Assembly: GCF_039566955.1 (NCBI RefSeq)
Contig: NZ_CP154796.1
Location: 2,480,001 to 2,544,000, forward strand
Length of the DNA stretch: 64,000 nt
Direction of reading: 5' to 3'
From: Micromonospora sp. DSM 45708
GTDB taxonomy: Bacteria > Actinomycetota > Actinomycetes > Mycobacteriales > Micromonosporaceae
Below the pieces are notes generated by a model. That model was not told the origin of the DNA and did no database searches. It saw only the letters and a program-made list of their open reading frames with translations. The position numbers and the translations under genes are program-made. Shown in pieces: positions 8,681-21,308 of the stretch. Position 1 is the stretch's first letter. The number at the start of each line of letters is the position of its first letter.

Positions 8681-9946
8681 ATGCCCTTGAACCGCCTGCT
8701 GACCCTGGGGGTCGGCGCCTGTGCGGCGGTCGCGCTCAGCGTGCCGGTGGCCGCGGTCCCGGCCTCGGCCACCGCGTCCCACCCCCACCGCGACGGCGGC
8801 AGCCTGGTGCTGGTCGGTGGCGCGCTCGCCGACGACAACCGGGAGATCTACGACGACATCGTCCGGCTGGCCGGTGGTCCCGGCAGGGCCCGGATCGGCA
8901 TCCTCACCGCGGGCGCGCCGGTGCCCGCCGAGGATCCCGACGCCGGCACGCCGGAGTGCAACAACAGTGTCTGCAACGGCGACTACTACGCCGAGCTGTT
9001 CCGCTCCTACGGGGTGGCCGACGCCCGGTGGATCCCGATCGACCTGGACCACCCGGGCGCGGCCGACGATCCGGCGGTGGTCCGGCAGGTCGAGTCGATG
9101 ACCGGCTTCTTCCTCGGCGGCGGCGACCAGTACCGCTACGTCACCACGATGACCCGGGGGGCGGCGCAGCGGGACAGCGCGGCGCTGGCCGCGATCCGGC
9201 GCAAGCTGCGGGGCGGCGCGGTGGTCGCCGGCACCAGCGCGGGCGCGCAGATCATGGCCGGCCGCGACATGATCACCGGCGGCTCCACCGAGCCGGGGCT
9301 GCGCGACGGCGCGAAGCCGGGCTACTTCGACGACCCGGACGTGCTCGGCTACCTGCCGCGCGGCGGGTTCGGGTTCTTCACCGCCGGGCTGGTCGACACG
9401 CACTTCTCCCGCCGGGGGCGGGAGGCACGGTCGATCCGCCTCGCCTCGGACACCGGGCACAAGCGGGTGTTCGGTCTGGACGAGAACACCGCGCTGGAGG
9501 TGACCGGCGTCGGCGGCCGGCGGCAGTCGCTGCGGGTGCTCGGGCAGCGTGGCGTCGGCGTGCTGGACCTGCGCCGGGCCCGGGTCACCGACCACGGCGG
9601 GGTGTGGGGGATCGAGGGTGTGCGGTGGAGCCGGCTCACCGCCGGGGACGCGTACGACGCGCCGCGCTGGCGGCTCGTGCCGGCCGCCGGCAAGCCGCGC
9701 GTCCGGCCGGTGGCCGGACCGTGCACCGCGACGCCGTCCGAGGACGTCTTCTACGACTACGCCATGGTCGGGCTGGTCGAGGACGGGCTGGCCGCCCGCA
9801 CCGGGTGCGTGACGGTCAGCGGCACGTCGTACGAGAAGGACCCGGTGTGGGCGGCGCGGCTGACCCGGGGCGCCGGTTTCGCGGCGTACCGGGGGGCGAC
9901 GGCGACCACGTTCACCGACGTGGTGGTCGGCATCCGACCGGTCTGA
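8681..9946 (+). CDS. Secreted cyanophycinase-like peptidase (S51 family)
   Basis: Member of the serine peptidase S51/cyanophycinase family, which cuts cyanophycin (multi-L-arginyl-poly-L-aspartate) to beta-Asp-Arg dipeptides. 421 residues with an N-terminal signal peptide ending near residue 32, so it acts outside the cell. The core starts at LVLVGGALADDNREIYDD. Family motifs are FFLGGGDQYRY (143-153), the nucleophile elbow GTSAGA with Ser186, and VDTHFSRRGR. ATG 8681 has GTGAGGAGC upstream. The region after about residue 270 is longer than in cytoplasmic cyanophycinases and is not recognised. The substrate is inferred from the family; related S51 members act on other peptides. Confidence 0.85.
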   Translation: MPLNRLLTLGVGACAAVALSVPVAAVPASATASHPHRDGGSLVLVGGALADDNREIYDDIVRLAGGPGRARIGILTAGAPVPAEDPDAGTPECNNSVCNGDYYAELFRSYGVADARWIPIDLDHPGAADDPAVVRQVESMTGFFLGGGDQYRYVTTMTRGAAQRDSAALAAIRRKLRGGAVVAGTSAGAQIMAGRDMITGGSTEPGLRDGAKPGYFDDPDVLGYLPRGGFGFFTAGLVDTHFSRRGREARSIRLASDTGHKRVFGLDENTALEVTGVGGRRQSLRVLGQRGVGVLDLRRARVTDHGGVWGIEGVRWSRLTAGDAYDAPRWRLVPAAGKPRVRPVAGPCTATPSEDVFYDYAMVGLVEDGLAARTGCVTVSGTSYEKDPVWAARLTRGAGFAAYRGATATTFTDVVVGIRPV

Positions 9947-9998
9947 CGCGGTGGTGCGGCGGCGTCGGGCGGGCGTCCGGCGCCACCGTCATCTCGAT

Positions 9999-10012
9999 GT
10001 AACAGAAGTTAC
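9999..10012. promoter_or_regulatory. Operator GTAAC-N4-GTTAC, site 1 of second S51 gene
   Basis: GTAACAGAAGTTAC is a perfect 5+5 inverted repeat. Its centre is 39 bp from the next site (10038-10051). The same pair at the same spacing occurs before the amino-acid importer (12462, 12501). Confidence 0.8.
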
Positions 10013-10037
10013 GTATTGAGCAGTGAACTTAATGGAT

Positions 10038-10051
10038 GTAACTTCTGTTTC
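10038..10051. promoter_or_regulatory. Operator GTAAC-N4-GTTTC, site 2 of second S51 gene
   Basis: GTAACTTCTGTTTC differs from the GTAAC-N4-GTTAC palindrome at one position. It lies 28 bp upstream of the start codon at 10080. Confidence 0.75.
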
Positions 10052-10079
10052 ATCGCTTCGTGGCCCCTCGGAGGTGCCC

Positions 10080-11507
10080 ATGTCCCCTTCCCGCAACGCT
10101 CGCCGGCTCGCCGTGACGGCGTCCGCCGCCGCGCTCCTCACCGTCGTCCCGCTCGGCGTCACCGCCGCGCACGCCCAGGTCACCCGGGTACGCCAGGGCA
10201 GCGCCACCGACGCCGCCCGGGCGAGCTGGTCCGGCCCGGCGTACACCATGAACGGCTCCGGCGGCATCGTCACCGCCACCATGACGAAGGCGGTCGACGC
10301 GATCCGCGGCGGCACCGGCGCGATCGACGTGGTGGTGGTCGCCGGCTCCGGCACCGGCACGCCGGAATGCGACGTGATCACGCCGCTGGCCGGCGTCAAC
10401 TCCTGCACCACGCTCACCCTCACCGCCGCCGCCGACGGGAACAACAGCCAGGTCAACGCGGACATCCGCAACGCCGAGTTCGTCTACTTCGCCGGCGGCG
10501 ACCAGTGCCGTTACGTGGCCTGGAAGGGCACCGCGCTGGAGGCGTCGGTGGAGTCGGTGGTGGCCAAGGGCGGCGGCGTCGGCGGCGGCAGCGCCGGCCA
10601 CCACGTCAACAGCGACGTGGTCTACGACGCCTGCACCGCGAGCGCCACCTCGGCGACCGCGCTGGCCAACCCGTACGACCGGTCGTTGACGTTCACCACC
10701 GGCATGTTCCGCTGGCCGAACTACGCCGGCACCATCAACGACTCGCACTTCGTCACCCGGGACCGGATGGGCCGGACCATCGCGTTCGTGGCCCGCGCGG
10801 TCAAGGACGGGCTGGTCTCCGGCGGCAAGGCGTGGGGCGTCGGGGTCGAGGAGGGTGCCTCGCTCTACGTCGACCGGGCCGGCCGGGCCACGCTCAGCGG
10901 CCCGAGCGCGTACGTGGTGCTCGGCGACCACCAGCCCGAGGTGGCGGTGTCCGGGCAGCCGCTGACCTACACCGGCGTCAAGATCTGGAAGCTGACCGAC
11001 GGGCAGAGCTACGACTTCGCCAACCGGCCCACCTGCGGCTACTACCTGCGCAGCGTGCGCGCCGGCGTGCCGGACGCCAGCCTCTACAGCGGTACGCCGG
11101 TGACCGACTGCTCGTCCACGCCGCCGCCGTCCGGCGGGTCGTCCTACGCCGAGGTGGAGCCGAACGACTCCCGGACCGCCGCCAACGACGTCTCCGGGCT
11201 GACGTTCCCGGCCACGATCACCGGGGACATGAAGAGCGCCTCCGACCGGGACTACTTCGCACTGACGCTCGGTAGTGGACAGACGCTGACCGTCAACTGC
11301 GCGGTGCCGTCCGCGTACGACGCGGACCTCTACCTGCTCAGCGCCACCGGCAGCACGTTGACCCGGTCGGTGAACGACGGGGCCGGGACGGACGAGTCGG
11401 TCACGCTGACCCGGACCGCCTCCGGCTCGGCCACCTACCACCTCGACCTGGAGGCGTACGCCGGCTCCGGCACGGCCGACTACGCCTGCGCGGTCACGAA
11501 GTCCTGA
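10080..11507 (+). CDS. Secreted S51/cyanophycinase-like protein with C-terminal PPC domain
   Basis: Second S51-type protein, 475 residues, with a signal peptide (residues 1 to about 32, ending AHAQ). The peptidase-like region (about 60-350) keeps the family motif YFAGGDQCRYV. Its nucleophile elbow is altered to GGGSAGHH, with Ser171 still present. The C-terminus (about 358-475) is a pre-peptidase C-terminal (PPC) beta-sandwich, seen in EVEPNDSRTAAND and DRDYFALTL, typical of secreted hydrolases and often removed on maturation. ATG 10080 is chosen for CGGAGGT seven bases upstream; a longer reading from 10023 would run through the operator. Two GTAAC-type operators precede it, linking it to the RpiR regulator and importer downstream. 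Confidence 0.82.
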   Translation: MSPSRNARRLAVTASAAALLTVVPLGVTAAHAQVTRVRQGSATDAARASWSGPAYTMNGSGGIVTATMTKAVDAIRGGTGAIDVVVVAGSGTGTPECDVITPLAGVNSCTTLTLTAAADGNNSQVNADIRNAEFVYFAGGDQCRYVAWKGTALEASVESVVAKGGGVGGGSAGHHVNSDVVYDACTASATSATALANPYDRSLTFTTGMFRWPNYAGTINDSHFVTRDRMGRTIAFVARAVKDGLVSGGKAWGVGVEEGASLYVDRAGRATLSGPSAYVVLGDHQPEVAVSGQPLTYTGVKIWKLTDGQSYDFANRPTCGYYLRSVRAGVPDASLYSGTPVTDCSSTPPPSGGSSYAEVEPNDSRTAANDVSGLTFPATITGDMKSASDRDYFALTLGSGQTLTVNCAVPSAYDADLYLLSATGSTLTRSVNDGAGTDESVTLTRTASGSATYHLDLEAYAGSGTADYACAVTKS

Positions 11508-11521
11508 CCGGGACGGGGTTC

Positions 11522-11551
11522 GTGGGCGGGCGGCGACGCCCGCCCGCCCAC
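11522..11551 (+). terminator. GC hairpin after the second S51 gene
   Basis: An 11-bp perfect stem (11522-11532 with 11541-11551) and an 8-base loop, 14 bases after the stop at 11507. No U-tract, as is common in this genome. It separates the S51 gene from the RpiR regulator. Confidence 0.65.
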
Positions 11552-11578
11552 GGACCGACGGGCCGTTACGCTCTGCTC

Positions 11579-12463
11579 GTGCCGAACTCCGATGCTGTCG
11601 ACGAACCGCACGTGGTGGGCGTCGCGGCGCTGATCCGCGGGCGGCTCGGCGAGTGCAGCCCGGCCGAGCGCCGGGTCGCCCGCGCCCTGCTCGCCGCCTA
11701 CCCGTCCGCCGGCCTGGGCACGGTGGCGGCGCTTGCCGAACGCGCCGAGGTGAGCGCACCGACCGTGCTGCGGCTGCTGTCCCGGCTCGGTTTCGGCGGG
11801 TACCCGGAGTTCCAGCGCGCGCTGCGCGACGAGCTGGCGGAGCGGGAGACGTCGCCGCTGACCGCCTACCGGGCCGCCGAGCACGGCGGGACGCCACCGG
11901 CGGGCGCGTTGCCCCGGGCCGCGGCGACGCTGCCGGAGGCGGTGGCCGGCACGCTGGCCGACCTGCCCCAGGGCGAGTTGGACGCCGCCGTGCGCCTCCT
12001 GGCCGACCAGCAGTTCCGGGTCACCGCGGCCGGTGGTCGGTTCTCCGCGCTGGTGGCCCACTATCTGGTGCTGCACCTGATGCAGGTGCGGGGCAACAGC
12101 CGGCTGCTGCCCCCCGGGCCGGTGGAGCGCGCGGACCTGCTGGTCGACGTCGGCAAGCGGGATCTCGTCGTGCTCTTCGACTTCCGCCGGTACGAGGAGT
12201 CGACGCTGGCGCTGGCCCGGGAGGTGACCGCCCGGGGCGCGCGGGTGGTGCTGTTCACCGACCGGTGGCTGTCGCCGGTGGCCGGGCTGGCCGAGGTGGT
12301 GCTGCCCGCGCGGGTCGAGTCGCCGTCGCCGTACGACAGCTTCGTGCCCACGCTGGCGTTGGTGGAGACGCTGGTCGCGGCGCTGATCGACAGGCTCGGC
12401 CCGGTGGCCGGCGCGCGGCTCAAGGCGATGGAGGGGGCGCAGCAGGCGTTCGGCGACCACTGA
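11579..12463 (+). CDS. RpiR/MurR-family transcriptional regulator
   Basis: Transcription factor with an N-terminal RpiR helix-turn-helix (about residues 10-85, CSPAERRVARALLAAYP through VSAPTVLRLLSRLGFGGYPE) and a C-terminal SIS fold (about 125-275) that normally binds a phosphorylated sugar or amino sugar. 294 residues, normal size. GTG 11579 is the most likely start; no good ribosome site precedes it, so the message may be leaderless. Identical paired GTAAC-N4-GTTAC operators flank the gene: before the S51 gene upstream and before the importer downstream, the latter overlapping this gene's own stop codon. It is therefore the best candidate for the local regulator of both units. That link is inferred. 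Confidence 0.9.
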   Translation: MPNSDAVDEPHVVGVAALIRGRLGECSPAERRVARALLAAYPSAGLGTVAALAERAEVSAPTVLRLLSRLGFGGYPEFQRALRDELAERETSPLTAYRAAEHGGTPPAGALPRAAATLPEAVAGTLADLPQGELDAAVRLLADQQFRVTAAGGRFSALVAHYLVLHLMQVRGNSRLLPPGPVERADLLVDVGKRDLVVLFDFRRYEESTLALAREVTARGARVVLFTDRWLSPVAGLAEVVLPARVESPSPYDSFVPTLALVETLVAALIDRLGPVAGARLKAMEGAQQAFGDH

Positions 12464-12475
12464 AACGTCCGTTAC
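12462..12475. promoter_or_regulatory. Operator GAAAC-N4-GTTAC, site 1 of importer operon
   Basis: GAAACGTCCGTTAC overlaps the RpiR stop codon. Its centre is 39 bp from the second site, the same geometry as at 9999/10038. A GTTAC-N8-GTAAC overlap (12471-12488) follows. Confidence 0.75.
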
Positions 12476-12500
12476 AAAAAACTGTAACCCCACCGAGATC

Positions 12501-12514
12501 GTAACGTGAGTTAC
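12501..12514. promoter_or_regulatory. Operator GTAAC-N4-GTTAC, site 2 of importer operon
   Basis: GTAACGTGAGTTAC is a perfect 5+5 inverted repeat, 43 bp upstream of the binding-protein start at 12558. Confidence 0.8.
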
Positions 12515-12557
12515 AGTCCGGGGGCTGGCTGTTCCGGCCCCCGGAAGGACTTCCCCC

Positions 12558-13499
12558 ATGCGTATCCGATCCCTCGCCCTGGTCGGCGCGACCACGGTGT
12601 TGCTCGCCGCCACCGCCGCCTGCGGCTCCGCCGCGACCGGTGACGCCACCGACGAGATCACGCCCGTCTCGGTCACCATCGACGGTGTCGGCCCGGTCGA
12701 GACCGACAAGGCCGTCGCCGCCAAGGTCCCGTCCGACGTGCGCGGTCGCGGCACCGTCACGGTCGCCACCAACGCCCCCTACCAGCCGTTCATCGACTTC
12801 AAGGTGGAAGGCCGCACCGACCAGTTCGTCGGCCTCGACCACGACCTGTTCCAGGCCGCCTCGGCCCGGCTCGGCCTCAAGGCCACCTTCACCCAGCAGC
12901 CGTTCGACGGCCTGGTGCCCGGTCTCCAGGCCGCCAAGTACGACGCCATCGCCGGAGGCATCACCGACAAGAAGGAACGCCAGCAGGTCGCCACGTTCGT
13001 CGACTACTCCGCCTCCGGCACCGGGTTCCTGGTCGCCGCCGGCAACCCGCTCGGCGTGCGGACCGTGGCCGACCTCTGCGGACGCACCGTCGCCGTGCAG
13101 AAGGCCAGCAACCAGGCGAAGAACCTGGCCACGTACGCCAAGGAGAGCTGCGCCGGCCGGCCGCTGGAGGTCAAGGAGTACCCGGAGAACCCGCAGGCCG
13201 TGCAGGCGCTGATCGCCGGCAACGTGCAGGTGGTCGCCGCCACCCGGGTCAACCTGGTGGAGACCGCCGGCTCGCTCGCCGGCAAGGCCGAGCTGGTCGA
13301 CGACCCGTCCTCGCCCAACGGCTGGCTGGCCAGCCCGAACGGCTTCGGGTTCCTCAAGGCGAACAAGGAACTGGCCGAGGCGTACCGGGCCGCCGTGCAG
13401 TCGCTGATCGACGACGGCACCTACGGCAAGATCCTGGCCCGCTGGAAGCAGACCCCGATCGCGATCGACAAGGCCACCGTCGACCAGGCCATCGACTGA
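12558..13499 (+). CDS. Amino-acid ABC transporter substrate-binding lipoprotein
   Basis: Extracytoplasmic receptor of a polar amino-acid importer (SBP_bac_3 family). 313 residues. Lipoprotein signal with lipobox LAATAAC, so the acylated Cys is near residue 22. The binding fold (about 65-300) includes [17 protein letters not shown] and the paired segments [16 protein letters not shown] and [19 protein letters not shown], typical of His/Arg/Gln/Glu receptors. ATG 12558 follows GGAAGGAC. It is the first gene of an operon with permease, ATPase and an M20 peptidase. A strong hairpin after it probably keeps its expression above that of the membrane parts. The operators upstream suggest RpiR control. 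Confidence 0.92.
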
Positions 13500-13612: not shown

Positions 13613-14470
13613 ATGACCACCACCGAACCCCCGACGGTACGGGTCGTCCCCGTCCGCCACTACGGCCGCTGGCTGACCGCGCTGGTCGTGGCCGGGCTGG
13701 CCGCGCTGTTCCTGCGGGCGCTGCTGACCAGCCCCAACCTCGAACCCGGCACCGTGGCCCACTACCTGTTCCAGGACTACGTGCTCGACGGCGTGGTCAC
13801 CACGCTCTGGCTCACGCTGCTCGCCATGCTGCTCGGCACCGCCGGCGGCGTCCTGCTCGCCGTGCTGCGGCTCTCCGACAACCCGGTGCTGCGCGGCGTC
13901 TCCTGGACGTTCATCTGGGTCTTCCGCGGCACCCCGCTGCTCGTGCAGATCATCTTCTTCGGGTTCCTCGGCGCGCTGTTCCCCCGGATCACGCTCACCG
14001 TGCCGTTCACCGGCACCGTCCTGTTCGACCGCCCCACCAGCGTGGTGGTCACCGGCACCGTCGCCGCCGTGCTCGCGCTGTCGCTCAACGAGATGGCGTA
14101 CGCGGCCGAGGTGATCCGCGGCGGCATCCTGGCCGTCGACGACGGGCAGACCGAGGCCGCCGCCGCGCTCGGCATGGGACCCACGCTCACCCTGCGCCGG
14201 GTGGTGCTGCCCCAGGCCATGCGCGTGATCATCCCGCCGATGGGCAACGAGACCATCACCATGCTCAAGTCGACGGCGCTCGTGTCGATCATCGCCGGAC
14301 GGGACCTGATGACCGCCGTGCAGAGCGTCTACCAGAACAACTACAAGGTGATCCCGCTGCTCCTGGTGGCGGCGATCTGGTACCTCGCCCTGGTCAGCCT
14401 CCTCTCCGCCGGCCAGTGGCTGGTCGAGCGGCGGTTCGGCCGCGGCTTCGCCCGGGGAGGCGTGCGATGA
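13613..14470 (+). CDS. Amino-acid ABC transporter permease (HisMQ type)
   Basis: Membrane subunit of the polar amino-acid importer, 285 residues. About five to six hydrophobic segments are visible. The cytoplasmic EAA-type loop, [24 protein letters not shown], is near residues 181-204 and contacts the ATPase. ATG 13613 has GGAGG upstream. Its stop overlaps the ATPase start as ATGA. No second permease is present, so it probably works as a homodimer. Confidence 0.93.
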
Positions 14471-15228
14471 CGGCGATGGTCCTGGCCGAGGGCGTGACCA
14501 AGCGGTTCGGCCCGGTCGAGGTGCTCAAGGGCATCGACCTGACCGTGGCCCCCGGCGAGGTGGCCTGCCTGCTCGGCCCCTCCGGCTCCGGCAAGTCGAC
14601 GTTCCTGCGCTGCGTCAACCACCTGGAGCGCATCGACGGCGGGCAGCTCCGGGTCGACGGCGAGCTGGTCGGCTACCGCCGCCAGGGCGACAAGCTGCAC
14701 GAGTTGAAGGCCCGCGAGGTGGCCGTGCGCCGCCGCGACATCGGCATGGTGTTCCAGCGGTTCAACCTGTTCCCGCACCTCACCGCGCTCGGCAACGTCA
14801 CCGAGGCGCCGGTGCGGGTGCTGCGCACCCCGCGCGGGCGGGCCCGCGAGGAGGCGATGCGGCTGCTCGACCGCGTCGGGCTGGCCGAGCGCGCGCACCA
14901 CTACCCGGGTCAGCTCTCCGGCGGCCAGCAGCAGCGGGTGGCGATCGCCCGGGCGCTGGCCATGCGCCCGAAACTGATGCTCTTCGACGAGCCCACCTCC
15001 GCGCTCGACCCGGAGCTGGTCGGCGAGGTGCTCGACGTGATGAAGGGCCTCGCCGCCGACGGCATGACCATGGTGGTGGTGACCCACGAGATGGGCTTCG
15101 CCCGCGAGGTCGCCGACCAGGTCGCGTTCCTCGACGACGGCGTGGTGGTCGAGGCCGGCCCGCCGGACGAGGTGCTCGGCCGGCCCCGCCACGAGCGCAC
15201 CCGCGCCTTCCTCGACAAGGTGCTCTGA
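14467..15228 (+). CDS. Amino-acid ABC transporter ATPase
   Basis: ATP-hydrolysing subunit of the amino-acid importer (GlnQ/HisP type), 253 residues. Walker A is GPSGSGKST (about 38-46), the Q-loop [10 protein letters not shown], the signature LSGGQQQR and Walker B MLFDEP, followed by H-loop VTHEMGFA. A slightly long insertion between Walker A and the Q-loop ([17 protein letters not shown]) is common in this subgroup. ATG 14467 overlaps the permease stop, and its own TGA overlaps the next ATG (TGATG), so translation is coupled. Confidence 0.96.
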
Positions 15229-16394
15229 TGGACCCGTTGCTGCGCGCCGCCGGTGACCGGCTGACCGCCTACCACGACCGGCTCGCCCGACTGGTCGCGC
15301 TCGACTCCGGCTCCGGCCAGGTCGACGGTCTGCGGGAGGTCGCCGACCTGGTGCAGGGCTGGTGCCTCGCCGCCGGGCTGGCCGTGGAGCGGGAACCGGT
15401 CGCCGACCCGGCCGGCCGGCCGCTCGGCGACGTGCTGACCGCCCGCCGCCGGGGCGCCGGTACCCGCCGGATCCTGCTCGCCGGTCACCTGGACACCGTG
15501 TTCCCGCCCGGCACGGCCGCCGCCCGCCCGTTCCGGGTGCAGGACGGCCGGGCGTACGGGCCGGGGGTCAGCGACGACAAGGGCGGCGTGCTCGCCGGAC
15601 TCGCCGCCGTCGAGGTGCTCGCTTCGCTGGACCGGCACGACTACGGCGAACTGGTGCTGGTCTGCACGCCGGACGAGGAGATCGGGTCGGTGGGCAGCCG
15701 GCCGTTGCTGCGTACCCTCGGGGCCGAGGCCGACGTGGCGCTCTGCCTGGAGTGTGCCCGCGACAACGGCGACCTGGTCTCCGCCCGCAAGGGCGTCGCC
15801 GACCTCGCGGTGACGCTGCGCGGGCGGGCCGCGCACGCCGGCATCGAACCGGAGCGGGGCGCCAACGCGCTGCTCGCCGCCGCCCGGCTGACCGTGGCGC
15901 TGGACCAGCTCAACGGCCGGTGGCCCGGGGTGACGGTGAACGTCGGCGCGTTGGAGGCCGGCGGCCGGCCCAACGTGGTCGCCGACCGGGCCCGGATGCT
16001 TGTCGACCTGCGCGCCTGGCGCACCGGCGAGTACGAGGCCGCGCTCGCCGAGATCCGCCGGCTGGTCGCCGCGCCGGTCGTGTCCGGGGTGCACGCCGAG
16101 CTGACCGTGCAGGCGCCCACCCCGCCGTGGGAGCCGGACCCGGCCGGGCGTCGGCTGGCCGAGCTGGCCGCGAAGGTGGGTGCCGGGCTCGGCGTGCCGG
16201 TGTCGCACACCGCGACCGGCGGCTGCGCCGACGCCAACCTGTTGGCCGAGGCCGGCGCGACGGTGCTCGACGGGCTCGGCCCGGTCGGCGGCGCCGATCA
16301 CAGCCCGGGGGAGTGGCTCGACCTCGACTCGGTCGTCCCGCGGGTGGCGTTGCTGGCGGGCCTGATCGACGCGCTCGGCCGGTCGCGGGCGTAG
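15228..16394 (+). CDS. M20-family zinc metallopeptidase
   Basis: Cytoplasmic dizinc peptidase or amidohydrolase of the M20 (glutamate carboxypeptidase/ArgE/DapE) family, 388 residues. The metal site is visible: GHLDTV (His87, Asp89), SDDKGG (Asp117), CTPDEEIGS (Glu150 and Glu151), and a C-terminal GADHSPGEW. The dimerisation lid is around 175-290. Its start overlaps the ATPase stop, so it is made with the importer and most likely hydrolyses an imported dipeptide or acylated amino acid. If the upstream S51 proteins release beta-Asp-Arg, this would be the candidate dipeptidase. That role is a hypothesis; no residue here proves substrate choice. Confidence 0.9.
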   Translation: MDPLLRAAGDRLTAYHDRLARLVALDSGSGQVDGLREVADLVQGWCLAAGLAVEREPVADPAGRPLGDVLTARRRGAGTRRILLAGHLDTVFPPGTAAARPFRVQDGRAYGPGVSDDKGGVLAGLAAVEVLASLDRHDYGELVLVCTPDEEIGSVGSRPLLRTLGAEADVALCLECARDNGDLVSARKGVADLAVTLRGRAAHAGIEPERGANALLAAARLTVALDQLNGRWPGVTVNVGALEAGGRPNVVADRARMLVDLRAWRTGEYEAALAEIRRLVAAPVVSGVHAELTVQAPTPPWEPDPAGRRLAELAAKVGAGLGVPVSHTATGGCADANLLAEAGATVLDGLGPVGGADHSPGEWLDLDSVVPRVALLAGLIDALGRSRA

Positions 16395-16434: not shown

Positions 16435-16980
16435 TCAGGGCAGCCGGGCCTGCGCCCGGTTCGGTGGCCGTAGGCGGCCGAGGCGTCGGGCCGGTGGCGG
16501 GGCGCCGGGGCGCACCTCGACGAGGGTCCGCTCCGCGTCGTGCCAGATCATGCCGTGCAGGCCGCAGCGGCCCGACCGCACCGCCTGATCGAGCAGGGGG
16601 GAGTGCCGGCGCAGCGCGGCGAGGGTGGCGCGCACCCGCTCGGGTCCGCTGCCGTGCGGCAGCGAGCAGGCGGTGTGGCCGAGCACCACCACCAGGGGTA
16701 CGCCGAGGTGGCCGACCGCGTACTCCAGGCTGCCCCGCACCGAGGGCCCGGCGCTCAGGCCGGCGGCGCGCACCGCGAACACGTCGGCGCCGCCGAACAC
16801 CGTCGCCGCTTCCGGCTGCGGATCGGCGCAGGAGAGGACCGCCGCCACCGGGGCTCCGGCCGGGGTGGACGGCGTGGGCGCCGCCCCCACCCGGAAACGG
16901 TGGTGTCCCGCGCGCAGCCGGGCGAGGGCGAAGCTCGGGCTGAGGGGCCACCCCCGCGGCGGGGATCCGGTCATGTCCAT
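16435..16980 (-). CDS. Beta-carbonic-anhydrase-like protein, altered active site
   Basis: 181 residues related to beta-class carbonic anhydrases, which interconvert CO2 and bicarbonate. The three zinc ligands are present: Cys51 in CADPQP, His102 and Cys105 in LGHTAC. Helix motifs VRAAG (71-75) and SLEYAVGHLGVPLVVVLGH follow. The canonical CxDxR dyad is changed: Asp53 is kept but the Arg is Gln55, and VRNAG is VRAAG. Activity may therefore be weak or changed. ATG 16980 has GAGGAGC upstream; the longer frame start at 17025 lies in the operator region. It is divergent from the DabB-DabA gene, which supports a role in inorganic-carbon handling. Confidence 0.85.
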   Translation of the reverse strand: MDMTGSPPRGWPLSPSFALARLRAGHHRFRVGAAPTPSTPAGAPVAAVLSCADPQPEAATVFGGADVFAVRAAGLSAGPSVRGSLEYAVGHLGVPLVVVLGHTACSLPHGSGPERVRATLAALRRHSPLLDQAVRSGRCGLHGMIWHDAERTLVEVRPGAPPPARRLGRLRPPNRAQARLP

Positions 16981-17020
16981 CACTGCTCCTCGTGACGAGC
17001 CGCTGTCATGCGTCTCACGA

Positions 17021-17042
17021 TACACGAATTAGAAATCGTGTA
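17021..17042. promoter_or_regulatory. Inverted repeat TACACGA-N8-TCGTGTA between carbonic anhydrase and DabBA genes
   Basis: A perfect 7+7 inverted repeat (17021-17027, 17036-17042) in an AT-richer patch of the 92-bp divergent intergenic region, 31 bp upstream of the DabBA start. It looks like an operator for a dimeric regulator that is not encoded nearby. Confidence 0.65.
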
Positions 17043-17072
17043 ATAGAGTGCGCTTGTCTGAAGGAGGTGGCG

Positions 17073-20000
17073 ATGGACGTCGCACTGGTCCTGGGAGTCC
17101 TGATCGGACCCGCGTCAGCGGTGCTCGGCGCGCTGGCGGTGCCCGACCCACGCCGGGCAGCCCGGCTGGTCGGCGCGTTGCTCGGTCTCGGCGCGGTGGC
17201 GGCCACCGCGCTGCTGGTCCGGGTGGCGACCGACCCGGCCCTACCAGGCGTGCTCATCCGCGTCGACACGTTCGGGCCGGCGTTCTCCGTCGGCGTCCGC
17301 GTCGACCGGTTCGGCGCGCTGTTCGTACTGCTCGTCTGTGGGCTGGCCGCGGTCGTCGCCGGCTACGCGCGCCGCTACCTTGACGGCGAGCCGGGGGCCC
17401 GCGCGCTCCAGGCGCGGGTGGCGGCGGCCACCACCGCGACGCTGGTGATGGCGACCGCCCCCAGCCTGGTGCAGCTGGCCGTCGGCTGGATCGCGGCCGG
17501 GCACCTGCTGATCGGCCTCATCGGCCACTACCGCGACCAGCCCCGGGTACGGGCCGCCGCACGCCGGACCCGACGACTGTTCCTCGTCGGCGACGCCGCG
17601 CTGGTCGCCGGCCTCGCGCTGCTGGTCACGCCGACCGGCGACGCCGACCTGGACGCGGTACGCGCCGAGGCCGGCGACCGGCCCGGATGGCTGCTGGCCG
17701 TCGCCGGCGCGCTGCTGCTGGTGGCCGGCGCGGTGCGGTCCGCGCAGGTGCCGGCACACCGCTGGCTGCCGTCCACGCTGGACGCGCCGACCCCGGTCTC
17801 GGCGTTCCTGCACGCCGGAATGGTCAACGTGGCCGGGTTCCTCATGATCACGTTGGCGCCGGTGGTGACCGCCGCGCCCGGGATGATGCCGGCGATGGTG
17901 CTCGTCGGCCTCGTCACCGCCGTCTCGGGGCTGCTGTTCGCGGCGGTGCGCACCGACGTCAAGGGCACCCTCGCCCGGTCCACCGTGGCGCAGATGGGGT
18001 TCATGCTCGCCCAGTGCGGGCTCGGCGCGTTCGGGCTGGCCGCCGTGCACCTGGTCGGGCACGCCGTCTACAAGGCGTACGCGTTCCTCTCCGCCGGCGG
18101 CACGCTCCAGGCGCAGGCCCGTGCCGCGGGCGCGCCACGGCCGGCGGGCCCGCCGCCCACCCGGTCCCGCGTCCTGGCCGCGGCGACGGTGGTCGTCGCC
18201 GTGCTGGCCACCGAGCTGCTGCTCGGCGCGACCGTCAGCGGCGCCCTCGGCGCCGCGCTGGTCGCCGCCGCCGCGCTCGCCGCCGTGTGGTCCGGCCTCG
18301 CCGACCGCGCGTTGCCGGCCCGGACCGCCCTCACCCTCACCGTCGCGGTGGCGGCGCTGGCCGGCGGACACCTCGTCGCCGGGCGGGCCGTCAGCCGCTG
18401 GCTGGCGCTGCCGACCGGGACGAGCCTGCTCGGCGTCGGCGCCGTGGCGTCCGTGCTCGCCGTGGTGGCCGTCGCCGGGGTCGTCCTGCGGCGTCGGCCG
18501 AGCGCCACGCTGTGGTGGTGGGCCTGGCACGACGGCGGCGCGAACCCGCGGGCCCGTCGGTCGGCCCCACCCGGAGGGCCGACCCCCGCGGCGCTGACGA
18601 CGCCGCGTCCCGGCCTGCTCGACCGTTCGGACGGCGCCCGGGTCGTCGCCGCCGCGACCGCCGCCGCCGACCACGTCGGCGCGGTCGGACCCCTGGACTC
18701 CTTCGTCGCGGTGAACCCCCTCTCCGGCCGGGAACGCGTGCCGTTCGCCCGGGCCACCGCCGAGCTGCGGGGCCTCGCCGACGCGCGGACCCACCTGCCG
18801 GCCGCCGAGTACCGCCGGCGACTGCGCGCCGGCCGGATCACGCCGGCCGACCTCACCGCCGTGCTCCCCCCGCCACCGCGTGCCGGGTCGGTGGTGGTCG
18901 GTCACCGGCGGATCGACGTCACCGACCTCCAGCTCACCGTGCTGGGCCACCCGGTGCACGACGGGCCGCCGCCGCCGGCCGACCTGCTCGCGGTGGCCCG
19001 CCGCCGGCTCGCCGACCTGCCCGCGCGACCCCGACCCCGCCTCCCGCACGAGGCCGGACCGCGCACCCTTGCCGAAACGCTCGACCGGGCGCTGGGCACC
19101 CGGATCGCCGCCGACGTCGACGACCTGGTCGCCGCCTGGTGCGCGGCGCACAGCGGACGCCCGGCGGCGCTCTGGCCGGTGCCCGGCCCGGCGGACGAGG
19201 GCTGCTGGGCGCGCTGGCGGCGGATGGCCGGCGCCGACCCGGCACTGGCCCGGTGGGGCGTCACCGGCCTCGCGGCCCTCGTCGACGCGTTGCCCCCCGC
19301 GCCCGAGCAGGCCGTCGCGGTGCTCCTGCGCGCGGTCGGGGTGCCACCCGTGGCCTGGTCCACCTACCTCTCCCGGTCCCTGCTCCGGCTGCCCGGGTGG
19401 GCCGGGCACGCCCGCTGGGCGCAGGCCCACCGGGGACCGGGGCCGGCACTGAGCCCGCTGGACCTGCTCGCCGTACGCCTCACCTACGAGTACGCGCTCG
19501 CCGGCGCCGCCGCCCAGCGCCACCTGGAACTGCCCCCGGTGCTGGACGCGGTAGCCGCCGCGACACCCACCACGCTGCCGAGGTCGGCCGGGATCACGCC
19601 GGAGGCCCTCGCCCGGCTGGCCGGCGCGCTCGACGTCGACGTCGCCGCGCTGGCGTGCCTGCCCGGCGAGACCGTGGCCGTGCTGCGGGACGTCGCGTGC
19701 CAGCTCACACCGTCGCGGCAGGCCGAGGTGTGGCTCGCCGCCGCGGAGCACGCGTACCGGCGCCGACTGCGCCACCGGCTGGACCGGGGCGAGCGCCGGC
19801 CGGCCGCCGGCCCGCCGGTGCTCGCCCAGGCGGTGTTCTGCATCGACGTACGCAGCGAGGGCCTGCGTCGGCACCTGGAGGCGACCGGACCGGTCGACAC
19901 GTACGGCTTCGCCGGCTTCTTCGGCCTGCCGGTGCGTACCGTGACCGCCGGCGCCCGGCGGGGACGCGACCGCTGCCCGGTCCTCATGCGACCGGTGGCC

Positions 20001-21308
20001 ACGGTCGAGGAGTCACCGGCGTCGGCGCGGGCCGGCCACGCGGTGCGGGTCCGGCGCTCGCGCCAGGCCTGGCGTCGCGCCTACGCCGCCGCCAAGGCGA
20101 ACCCGGTCGGCGCGTTCGCCTTCGTCGAGGTCGCCGGCGTGCTCGCCACCGCCGCCCTGCTCGTGCGCGCCGCCGCGCCGGGCCGGTTCGCGCCGGTCCA
20201 CGACCACACCGCACCGACCGCCGTCGACCTGGCCGCCGCGATGACGCTCGACGAACAGGTCTACTACGCCGAGGCGACGCTGCGCACGATCGGGCTCACC
20301 ACCGGTTTCGCGCCGCTGGTGCTGCTCTGCGGGCACGGCGCCACCAGCGCCAACAACCCGTACGCCGCCGCGCTGGACTGCGGCGCCTGCGGCGGCAACC
20401 GGGGCGGGGTGAGCGCGCGGCTCGTCGCCGGGGTGCTCAACCGGCCCGAGGTGCGCGCCGCCCTGGCCGACCGGGGCATCCACCTGCCCGACGGCACGCA
20501 CGTGCTGGCCGGCGAGCACGACACCGTCACCGACGAGGTGCGCCTGTTCGACGTGGACACGGTCCCCGCCGGGCTGCGACCGGCGGTCGGGGAGCTGTCC
20601 GGCCGGCTGGCCGAGGCGGGCGCGCGGTTGCGGGTGGAGCGGGCCGCGCGGCTGCCCGGCCGGCCGCGTCCGCGCCGCCTGCCCCGGCGCGCCGGCGACT
20701 GGGCGCAGGTCCGCCCGGAGTGGGCGCTGGCCGGCAACGCCGCGTTCATCGCCGCGCCCCGCGAGCTGACCGCCGGGGTCGACCTCGGCTGCCGGACGTT
20801 CCTGCACTCCTACGACTGCGCCGCCGACCGGGACGCGGCGGCGCTGGAGACGATCATGACCGGTCCGCTGGTGGTGGCCGCCTGGATCAACCTCCAGTAC
20901 TACTTCTCCACGGTGGATCCGCAGCGGCTCGGCGCGGGCACCAAGACCGTGCACACCGTCCTCGGCGACGCGCTCGGCGTCCTCTCCGGCTCCGGCGGTG
21001 ACCTGCGCGTCGGCCTCCCGCTCCAGTCGGTCGCCGACGGCACCCGACCGGCGCACGAGCCGCTGCGGCTGCTCGCCGTGATCCGCGCCCCGCACCACCT
21101 GGTCGACGCGGTGCTGGGCCGCAACCCCGGGCTGCGCCACCTGGTCGACGGCGGGTGGCTGTCGCTGACCGTCGTCGACCCCCGCACCGGCGAGTGGTCC
21201 GAGCCCGCGCCGGGCGGATCGTGGCGGGCGCTGCCCGCCGCGCACCTCGCCCCCGAGCCGCCCGCGCGCCACCCGGCGCCCGCGGCGGAGAAGGAGTACA
21301 CGGCATGA
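17073..21308 (+). CDS. dabBA: DabB-DabA fusion: inorganic-carbon (CO2/bicarbonate) accumulation transporter
   Basis: A single 1411-residue chain joining both parts of a DAB carbon-accumulation complex. Residues 1 to about 490 match DabB, an NADH-dehydrogenase-5/proton-antiporter-like membrane protein (many hydrophobic helices; STLDAPTPVSAFLHAGMVN, VKGTLARSTVAQMGFM). About 490-540 is a Pro/Gly/Arg linker. About 540-1400 is DabA (DUF2309), the carbonic-anhydrase-like subunit. Its zinc site is visible: CID at 923-925 (Cys923, Asp925), His1088 in CGHGA and Cys1103 in LDCGACGG, with the spacing expected for DabA. ATG 17073 has a full AAGGAGGTGG upstream. Its stop overlaps the PII-like start (ATGA). 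In characterised systems DabA and DabB are separate chains. Confidence 0.93.
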   Translation: MDVALVLGVLIGPASAVLGALAVPDPRRAARLVGALLGLGAVAATALLVRVATDPALPGVLIRVDTFGPAFSVGVRVDRFGALFVLLVCGLAAVVAGYARRYLDGEPGARALQARVAAATTATLVMATAPSLVQLAVGWIAAGHLLIGLIGHYRDQPRVRAAARRTRRLFLVGDAALVAGLALLVTPTGDADLDAVRAEAGDRPGWLLAVAGALLLVAGAVRSAQVPAHRWLPSTLDAPTPVSAFLHAGMVNVAGFLMITLAPVVTAAPGMMPAMVLVGLVTAVSGLLFAAVRTDVKGTLARSTVAQMGFMLAQCGLGAFGLAAVHLVGHAVYKAYAFLSAGGTLQAQARAAGAPRPAGPPPTRSRVLAAATVVVAVLATELLLGATVSGALGAALVAAAALAAVWSGLADRALPARTALTLTVAVAALAGGHLVAGRAVSRWLALPTGTSLLGVGAVASVLAVVAVAGVVLRRRPSATLWWWAWHDGGANPRARRSAPPGGPTPAALTTPRPGLLDRSDGARVVAAATAAADHVGAVGPLDSFVAVNPLSGRERVPFARATAELRGLADARTHLPAAEYRRRLRAGRITPADLTAVLPPPPRAGSVVVGHRRIDVTDLQLTVLGHPVHDGPPPPADLLAVARRRLADLPARPRPRLPHEAGPRTLAETLDRALGTRIAADVDDLVAAWCAAHSGRPAALWPVPGPADEGCWARWRRMAGADPALARWGVTGLAALVDALPPAPEQAVAVLLRAVGVPPVAWSTYLSRSLLRLPGWAGHARWAQAHRGPGPALSPLDLLAVRLTYEYALAGAAAQRHLELPPVLDAVAAATPTTLPRSAGITPEALARLAGALDVDVAALACLPGETVAVLRDVACQLTPSRQAEVWLAAAEHAYRRRLRHRLDRGERRPAAGPPVLAQAVFCIDVRSEGLRRHLEATGPVDTYGFAGFFGLPVRTVTAGARRGRDRCPVLMRPVATVEESPASARAGHAVRVRRSRQAWRRAYAAAKANPVGAFAFVEVAGVLATAALLVRAAAPGRFAPVHDHTAPTAVDLAAAMTLDEQVYYAEATLRTIGLTTGFAPLVLLCGHGATSANNPYAAALDCGACGGNRGGVSARLVAGVLNRPEVRAALADRGIHLPDGTHVLAGEHDTVTDEVRLFDVDTVPAGLRPAVGELSGRLAEAGARLRVERAARLPGRPRPRRLPRRAGDWAQVRPEWALAGNAAFIAAPRELTAGVDLGCRTFLHSYDCAADRDAAALETIMTGPLVVAAWINLQYYFSTVDPQRLGAGTKTVHTVLGDALGVLSGSGGDLRVGLPLQSVADGTRPAHEPLRLLAVIRAPHHLVDAVLGRNPGLRHLVDGGWLSLTVVDPRTGEWSEPAPGGSWRALPAAHLAPEPPARHPAPAAEKEYTA

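Follow-up and report, generated by a model that had tools for sequence, protein, structure and literature searches.

A predicted RpiR-repressed regulon joining a cyanophycinase-like protein to an amino-acid importer in Micromonospora and other genera

A cluster of seven genes in Micromonospora sp. DSM 45708 is best explained, we think probably and with real room for doubt, as a cyanophycin-scavenging regulon repressed by an RpiR-family regulator encoded within the cluster. The genes lie in what we refer to as the window, a stretch of 64,000 nt (contig NZ_CP154796.1, 2,480,001-2,544,000) whose positions provide the coordinates given here, and all are on the + strand in the order S51a, S51b, RpiR, binding protein, permease, ATPase and M20 hydrolase. 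S51a and S51b are predicted secreted cyanophycinase-like proteins, the binding protein, permease and ATPase form an amino-acid-type ATP-binding cassette (ABC) importer, and paired palindromic sites precede both S51b and the importer. Cyanophycin is a nitrogen-rich storage polymer, and the sites probably switch the genes that harvest it on and off. Judged by comparative evidence the regulon is real and extends well beyond Micromonospora. If the interpretation is correct, cyanophycin use would be regulated in Micromonospora, Streptomyces, Kitasatospora, Nocardioides, Nocardiopsis and their relatives, there would be a candidate for the β-Asp-Arg hydrolase that is missing from these genomes, and the RpiR protein would be one incapable of reading a sugar phosphate in the usual way.

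Operator sites and their association with RpiR

The motif GTAAC-N4-GTTAC occurs before S51b as GTAACAGAAGTTAC at 9999 and GTAACTTCTGTTTC at 10038, and before the importer as GAAACGTCCGTTAC at 12462 and GTAACGTGAGTTAC at 12501, with the members of each pair 39 bp apart; two of the four sites are perfect and two have one mismatch. A first-pass annotation of this DNA had reported the same four positions, mismatch counts and distances and had placed an RpiR gene between the two pairs, all of which was confirmed on the sequence (RpiR, 11579-12463). With the outer bases of the longer form, TGTAAC-N4-GTTACA, the operators (to which no strand is assigned) extend over 9998-10013 (TGTAACAGAAGTTACG) and 10037-10052 (TGTAACTTCTGTTTCA) at the S51b promoter, and over 12461-12476 (TGAAACGTCCGTTACA, its left half overlapping the RpiR stop codon) and 12500-12515 (CGTAACGTGAGTTACA) at the importer promoter, where an extra half-site, TGTAAC, lies between them (12483-12488).

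The bare motif would not convince on its own: when one mismatch is allowed it occurs 22 times in the 7,016,307 bp genome and the reversed control 13 times, a mild enrichment. The longer form with up to two mismatches has 25 matches genome-wide and 24 in the reversed control (whose division by mismatch number is not given); none is perfect, four have a single mismatch, and those four are the window sites. From base composition one would expect about 0.6 matches at up to one mismatch and 17 at two. A pattern describing the 39 bp pair, with 20 fixed bases and up to three mismatches permitted, matches twice, against an expectation of 0.006 and no match in the reversed control, so that the genome scan for such pairs which had been proposed at first pass returned only the two in the window. 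Two further perfect copies of the bare motif, at G000:C1:3017360 and 3971333, have neither both outer bases nor a 39 bp partner; the former immediately precedes a gene that looks reductase-like by eye, and the latter gave no clear gene. They were taken as chance, and a wider regulon in this genome by way of them was rejected.

The pair pattern tracks the regulator gene closely. We searched 151 Micromonospora genomes, an even draw from a larger group, and found an RpiR match (E-value ≤1e-40) in 27, at no less than 81 % identity in 26 and at 45 % in the other (G090). The pair pattern is also present in 27, namely 26 of the 27 RpiR-positive genomes and one of the 124 RpiR-negative ones (Fisher p 6e-27, relatedness ignored), and the reversed control pair in three of the 151. 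The RpiR-positive genome that was missed (G106) does contain a pair, spaced by exactly 39 bp, in which 5 of 24 bases are mismatched, and the sole RpiR-negative match (G082) resembles a repeat and was attributed to chance. S51b is found in 27 genomes, 26 with a close RpiR plus G143, which encodes S51b at 80 % identity and has no RpiR match. The DNA upstream of S51b in G143 is still recognizable despite the decay of its two sites to 5 and 7 mismatches of 12, and no other cluster gene was matched in the 14 kb fetched around S51b (L229, G143:C1:1588000-1602000). This genome is a natural deletion, albeit a single case. The neighbours of S51b there, as judged by eye, are a ketosynthase-like gene and a stretch that resembles a tRNA.

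Rearranged loci also occur within the genus. In two species (L051 and L056) the importer is inverted and lies on the other side of S51b, and the operator has moved along with it. The locus of Micromonospora thermarum (L058 / L150) looks damaged, with S51b represented by two partial matches and no match to the importer ATPase; its importer sites are still 39 bp apart.

Since the pair tracks RpiR, the motif follows the promoters across genera (see below) and the G143 sites have decayed, RpiR is very probably the protein that binds the TGTAAC-N4-GTTACA operators. The proposal made at first pass that a single regulator acts on both promoters therefore stands, and the regulator is, as far as comparison of genomes can tell, almost surely RpiR.

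The regulon in other genera

The best 80 of 370 relatives in a scan of named genomes belong to Micromonospora, Dactylosporangium, Catellatospora, Hamadaea, Nocardiopsis, Nocardioides, Actinomadura, Streptomyces, Kitasatospora, Streptacidiphilus and Nakamurella, together with one bin labelled Spirochaetaceae. Gene order is variable, and many Streptomyces and Kitasatospora loci have the order binding protein, permease, ATPase, M20, S51a, RpiR, with an S51a match in 36 of the 52 loci of this type. A weight matrix trained on 52 Micromonospora sites was applied to the non-Micromonospora loci only, using as threshold the 95 % level of a null made from upstream regions shuffled in blocks of two bases. 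The motif exceeds the null upstream of the binding-protein gene in all 64 loci (67 of 67 with three loci added). No locus exceeds it in front of the permease (0/64), ATPase (0/65) or M20 gene (0/65).

Outside the genus there are 34 S51b matches, of which 18 are divergent from the importer, two cover too little and 14 have an upstream region separate from that of the importer; the motif exceeds the null in 13 of these 14. The corresponding figure for all 34 loci, 27, is inflated because the 18 divergent genes share their upstream DNA with the importer. Streptomyces loci L166, L180, L190, L193, L203 and L208 are among those in which S51b is divergent and the importer operator region is shared. 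Upstream of S51a the motif is above the null in 29 % of 48 loci. S51a and S51b are themselves divergent in L083-L088 and L090 (Catellatospora and related genera), with one common region that contains several sites, at distances of 63 or 72 bp in some loci and of 39 bp in others, and since this region is common to both genes S51a is probably part of the regulon there.

Among 64 spacings compared in the non-Micromonospora loci (17 to 80 bp), 39 bp ranks first at the importer (z 5.0, 64 loci; |z| 5.6 averaged over 11 genera), and does so both outside Streptomyces and Kitasatospora (23 loci, |z| 5.0) and inside them (41 loci, |z| 5.4). The same spacing comes first at those S51b promoters whose upstream region is separate from that of the importer (|z| 4.8, 13 loci).

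Promoter architecture

The fine structure of the promoters was read in 27 Micromonospora loci (the window, L038-L062 and L078). The S51b pair stands at exactly 39 bp in 26 of them, the exception being L058, in which S51b is damaged. In all 26 loci with the pair a predicted -35 element, TTGAG[CTAG] or TAGACC, begins two bases after site 1 (TTGAGC at 10016-10021 on the + strand of the window), and a -10 element, TAACTT, TAACGT or TAATTT, lies within site 2 (TAACTT at 10039-10044), always after a spacer of 17 bp. Much of this spacer is variable across the 26 loci while the -35 and -10 elements are kept.

The importer promoter is readable in 26 of the 27 loci, L062 ending too early. Site 2 has at most two mismatches in all 26, and the extra half-site at most one. 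Site 1 has a perfect right half, GTTACA, in all 26, and as a whole site it has at most one mismatch in just seven; its left half, which starts with the RpiR stop codon, is not conserved. In the window, site 2 overlaps the predicted -10 TACAGT (12512-12517) and otherwise falls in the promoter spacer. A similar arrangement is seen in other Micromonosporaceae, where 10 of 12 loci have the extra half-site as [TC]GTAAC and eight of 12 have a -35 TTCACA 17 bp before TACA[GT]T or TACGGT, site 2 again lying within the spacer and overlapping the -10. Conservation of both pairs in relatives had been named at first pass as a check, and the outcome is mixed: the 39 bp spacing holds across genera and the S51b pair in 26 of the 27 Micromonospora loci, while the full importer pair is confined to close relatives, its conserved parts being the right half of the upstream site, the extra half-site and the downstream palindrome.

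In Streptomycetaceae-type loci, the consensus of 45 of the 46 readable promoters is site 1, TCTAGCCA, 15 bp, TGTAACTTC, with a -35-like TAGCCA, a 17 bp spacer and a -10 TAACTT, in the same register as the Micromonospora S51b promoter. Because the sites overlie the -35 and -10 elements, repression appears the likeliest mode of regulation at both promoters.

In the window genome the 260 bp that precede the first S51 gene (8681) contain no site with three or fewer mismatches. Sites in front of S51a were likewise sought and not found in the Micromonospora loci read, four of the 26 having only partial S51a matches that could not be judged. The earlier suggestion of a regulon that joins secreted S51 proteins to the importer therefore applies, in Micromonospora, to S51b and the importer operon and not to both S51 proteins.

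The RpiR regulator

The regulator (11579-12463, + strand) consists of an N-terminal HTH_6 domain (44.5 bits) and a C-terminal SIS domain (64.4 bits), both above the Pfam cut-off, and by this architecture it belongs to the RpiR/MurR family. Its predicted structure has a predicted local distance difference test (pLDDT) score of 80, and the best matches in the PDB are RccR and NanR; MurR is matched as well. The SIS strand-loop-helix segment that bears SxSGxT in NanR and RccR reads FD[FY]RRY in the window protein, and D201, R203, R204 and Y205 are invariant in all 15 aligned proteins, down to 39 % identity. The protein lacks the SxSGxT loop and is assigned by its architecture to the RpiR family and not to the sugar-phosphate sensors; given the replacement of this loop, a sugar phosphate is an unlikely effector.

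In three loci (L095-L097) that encode RpiR proteins of 38-41 % identity, a site coincides with the start of the RpiR gene or immediately precedes it. The G090 protein (40-45 % identity) is encoded next to an Asparaginase_2 gene, of the isoaspartyl-peptidase family, and an oligopeptide importer, in a cluster (L063, G090:C1:116520-131326) that also contains CoA-transferase III, DUF885 and M20 genes and a 39 bp pair in the S51b register. Isoaspartyl peptides are thereby suggested as a shared theme. In L132 (near 2226) and L133 (near 3482) a TGTAACAGA[CT]GTTTCA site lies about 1.5 kb from a distant RpiR; the L133 site is flanked by a permease-like gene and one other gene, beyond which an allantoinase-like fragment follows (genes named by eye).

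Gene products and the evidence for cyanophycin

S51a (8681-9946, + strand) is a predicted secreted cyanophycinase-like serine peptidase with a Pfam S51 match of 35.2 bits (cut-off 23.9) and an N-terminus that looks signal-like by eye. Aligned with the solved cyanophycinases 3en0, 7uqw and 7uqv it contains GTSAG, DtHFsrRgReaR and DEnTA. S51b (10080-11507, + strand), also predicted to be secreted, carries a C-terminal PPC-like domain (21.5 bits, under the cut-off) and matches cyanophycinase 7uqv weakly (E-value 0.0004), and its GGGSAG and HFxxRDRMGR residues are invariant in 12 aligned sequences. A serine nucleophile, a histidine, a glutamate and the arginines of HFxxRxRxxR have functional roles in the cyanophycinases of family S51, and all are present in S51a (compared with 3en0 and 7uqv) and in S51b. 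The predicted structure of S51b was too poor for a fold search (mean pLDDT 55.8, residues 148-252 below 50).

S51b and RpiR are separated by 71 bp and are likely to be co-transcribed, and a gap of 94 bp separates RpiR from the binding protein. The importer genes, all on the + strand, encode a substrate-binding protein of SBP family 3 (12558-13499; PF00497, 90.3 bits), whose best NCBIfam match, below cut-off, is the lysine/arginine/ornithine-binding subfamily, an amino-acid-type permease (13613-14470; PF00528, 70 bits; TIGR01726, 68.9 bits, cut-off 42.2) and an ATP-binding subunit (14467-15228; PF00005, 116.5 bits). They are followed by a carboxypeptidase G2-like M20 metallohydrolase (15228-16394, + strand; PF01546, 102 bits), which matches 6xj5 and 1cg2 with E-values of about 1e-47 and in which HxD, DDKGG, DEE and a C-terminal histidine are aligned. 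Further downstream, a single open frame at 17070-21308 (+ strand) joins a DabB-like antiporter domain to DabA, an inorganic carbon transporter, and adjoins a likely β-carbonic anhydrase gene on the other strand (16435-17025, - strand; named by eye).

In cyanophycin the α-amino group of arginine is joined to the side chain of aspartate, and M20 enzymes split N-acyl amino acids. The dipeptide β-Asp-Arg is therefore an N-acyl amino acid and an M20-type substrate, and we infer that the M20 enzyme could act as a β-Asp-Arg hydrolase. The known alternatives were sought, together with CphA1, in 46 of the 68 RpiR-positive genomes, the 22 distant ones being left out. IadA exceeds the cut-off in none of the 46 (weak matches in 42), the CphZ-family domain PF04952 in none, and the IaaA-type family PF01112 only in G090. 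The catalytic domain PF24827 exceeds its cut-off of 25 in two (26.2 and 25.5 bits, covering half of the model only), and there are six weaker matches, including one in the window genome at 21.1 bits. The window genome itself has no IadA, IaaA or CphZ-family match above cut-off. All matches to dipeptidase families lie outside the cluster except the IaaA-type gene of G090, which leaves the M20 enzyme, on present sequence comparisons, as the best candidate for the last step. There is also no CphA1 above cut-off in the window genome, the best TIGR02068 match being partial (204 bits against 850), and a cyanophycinase-like gene thus stands beside a transporter in a genome that lacks CphA1, as in cyanophycin utilization loci.

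Proposed regulation and its alternatives

In the mechanism that we favour, RpiR would bind the operators over the S51b-rpiR and importer-M20 promoters and repress both units, and hence also itself. The secreted S51 enzymes would cut cyanophycin to β-Asp-Arg, the ABC importer would take up this dipeptide and the M20 enzyme would split it into aspartate and arginine. A product of extracellular cyanophycin breakdown, most likely β-Asp-Arg or a derivative, would on entering the cell bind the altered SIS domain and release the repressor. More tentatively, the RpiR branch with the invariant FD[FY]RRY may sense an isoaspartyl dipeptide or another amino-acid-derived ligand, and command in many actinobacterial genera a cyanophycin regulon that ends in an M20 β-Asp-Arg hydrolase of a new kind.

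A number of results weigh against parts of this scheme. Outside Micromonospora the motif rarely exceeds the null upstream of rpiR (14 % of 71 loci). In the stretches fetched for 23 loci that match RpiR but neither the importer nor M20, sites with up to two mismatches are present in 11 and absent from 12, and in most of the 12 the identity of RpiR is 43-52 %. The motif thus accompanies this RpiR branch where the cluster is found, and otherwise only in part. The -35 of the window importer, CCCACC (12489-12494), is weak, and site 2 of the Streptomycetaceae-type promoters is in most cases only half a site, which also serves as the -10 and may be promoter, not operator. When the best pair over all spacings is taken, 39 bp is included in just 36 of 64 importer loci and eight of 14 S51b loci, and the 39 bp partner sites often have 4 to 7 mismatches of 12. 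As regards the substrate, S51a and S51b score 99.2 and 55.2 bits with the TIGR02069 cyanophycinase model, under its cut-off of 126.6, and one HFxxRxRxxR arginine is missing in two of four S51a proteins of other loci that were aligned; it is for these reasons that we call the two proteins cyanophycinase-like. CphA1 is above cut-off in four of the 46 genomes, and a further one, G236, has it as two stretches of one 933-codon frame; in such genomes the locus may serve the cell's own polymer. With the known β-Asp-Arg dipeptidases missing, the assignment of the last step depends on a guess about the M20 enzyme.

The low S51 scores, together with the closeness of the M20 enzyme to carboxypeptidase G2 and the want of a convincing match to a known β-Asp-Arg dipeptidase family in 45 of the 46 genomes, would also suit a locus in which RpiR and the operators form one system but some other Asp- or Arg-rich peptide is attacked in place of cyanophycin, the importer and M20 enzyme serving general peptide scavenging. 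We regard this as unlikely, though a serious contender, since both window S51 proteins keep the cyanophycinase serine, histidine and HFxxRxRxxR arginines and the distant RpiR of G090 adjoins an isoaspartyl-peptidase-family gene. The half-sites invite comparison with another regulator, such as the nitrogen regulator GlnR, whose box, GTnAC-N6-GAAAC, also contains GTnAC. With up to one mismatch this box is found nowhere in 9900-10100 or 12400-12559 and only twice in the whole window, and the sites are N4 palindromes that track RpiR; GlnR was rejected as the binder for lack of a box in either promoter region, and the general idea of a different binding protein seems to us very improbable. It is rather doubtful, too, that RpiR activates from the upstream site, or both activates and represses. 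The complete palindrome of Streptomycetaceae-type promoters is indeed the upstream one, just before the -35, and some RpiR proteins do activate (GlaR, PMC6528599), but in Micromonosporaceae the best-conserved importer site lies between the -35 and -10 and over the -10, where a repressor would be expected.

The 39 bp spacing calls for separate treatment. It had been taken at first pass to imply cooperative binding, which it does not, 39 bp being about 3.7 helical turns. At the S51b promoter it is also the distance that sets one site before the -35 and the other over the -10, and it is quite possible that the spacing is a by-product of promoter geometry (a -35, a 17 bp spacer and a -10 with TAAC inside the operator) and not of protein contacts. 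Both the S51b and the Streptomycetaceae-type promoters, in which site 1 ends 2 bp before the -35 and site 2 starts 2 bp before the -10, agree with this. The predicted Micromonosporaceae importer promoter does not fit so well, as it is shifted by about 10 bp relative to the sites and the upstream half-site nevertheless keeps the 39 bp register; that the sites keep their register although the S51b and importer promoters are placed differently hints at contact between the bound proteins. The geometric explanation concerns the spacing alone and is compatible with an RpiR repressor of cyanophycin genes.

Comparison with known systems

The window regulator has its HTH_6 and SIS architecture and its fold in common with RccR (8k3b), NanR (4ivn) and MurR (7en5). 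It differs from these sugar-phosphate regulators in having FD[FY]RRY in place of the SxSGxT loop. For the M20 enzyme the closest solved relative is carboxypeptidase G2 (1cg2, 6xj5), with the catalytic residues aligned; carboxypeptidase G2 removes the C-terminal glutamate from folates. The cyanophycin dipeptide hydrolase CphZ and the aot operon were described in PNAS in 2023, in a paper cited in PMC10206079; they reportedly bring together an amino-acid-type ABC importer and a β-Asp-Arg hydrolase, as the window locus is proposed to do, although CphZ is of the M14/AstE-AspA family and the window locus has an M20 enzyme.

Sharon and Schmeing (PMC10206079) report that clusters of cyanophycinase and isoaspartyl dipeptidase genes occur mostly in genomes that lack CphA1, and that amino-acid transporters often accompany them. 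They add that some phyla have a dipeptidase yet to be discovered, and refer to the cyanophycin utilization locus described by Ben Hania et al. (2017). A term search of the main text of PMC10206079 gave no mention of Streptomyces, Micromonospora or M20. In the openly licensed literature that was searched (CC0, CC BY and CC BY-SA, which does not imply absence from print) no paper combined cyanophycin with RpiR, or cyanophycinase with 'RpiR family' or with Micromonospora. As cited in PMC10206079, the locus of Ben Hania et al. (2017) gathers cyanophycinase, transporter and peptidase as the window locus does. The window locus has an M20 enzyme where that locus has IadA or IaaA, and it adds RpiR and its operators, no such regulator being mentioned for that locus in what we saw of PMC10206079. 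The RpiR operator system is not described in the papers searched; the locus itself is probably a variant of this known cyanophycin-scavenging locus.

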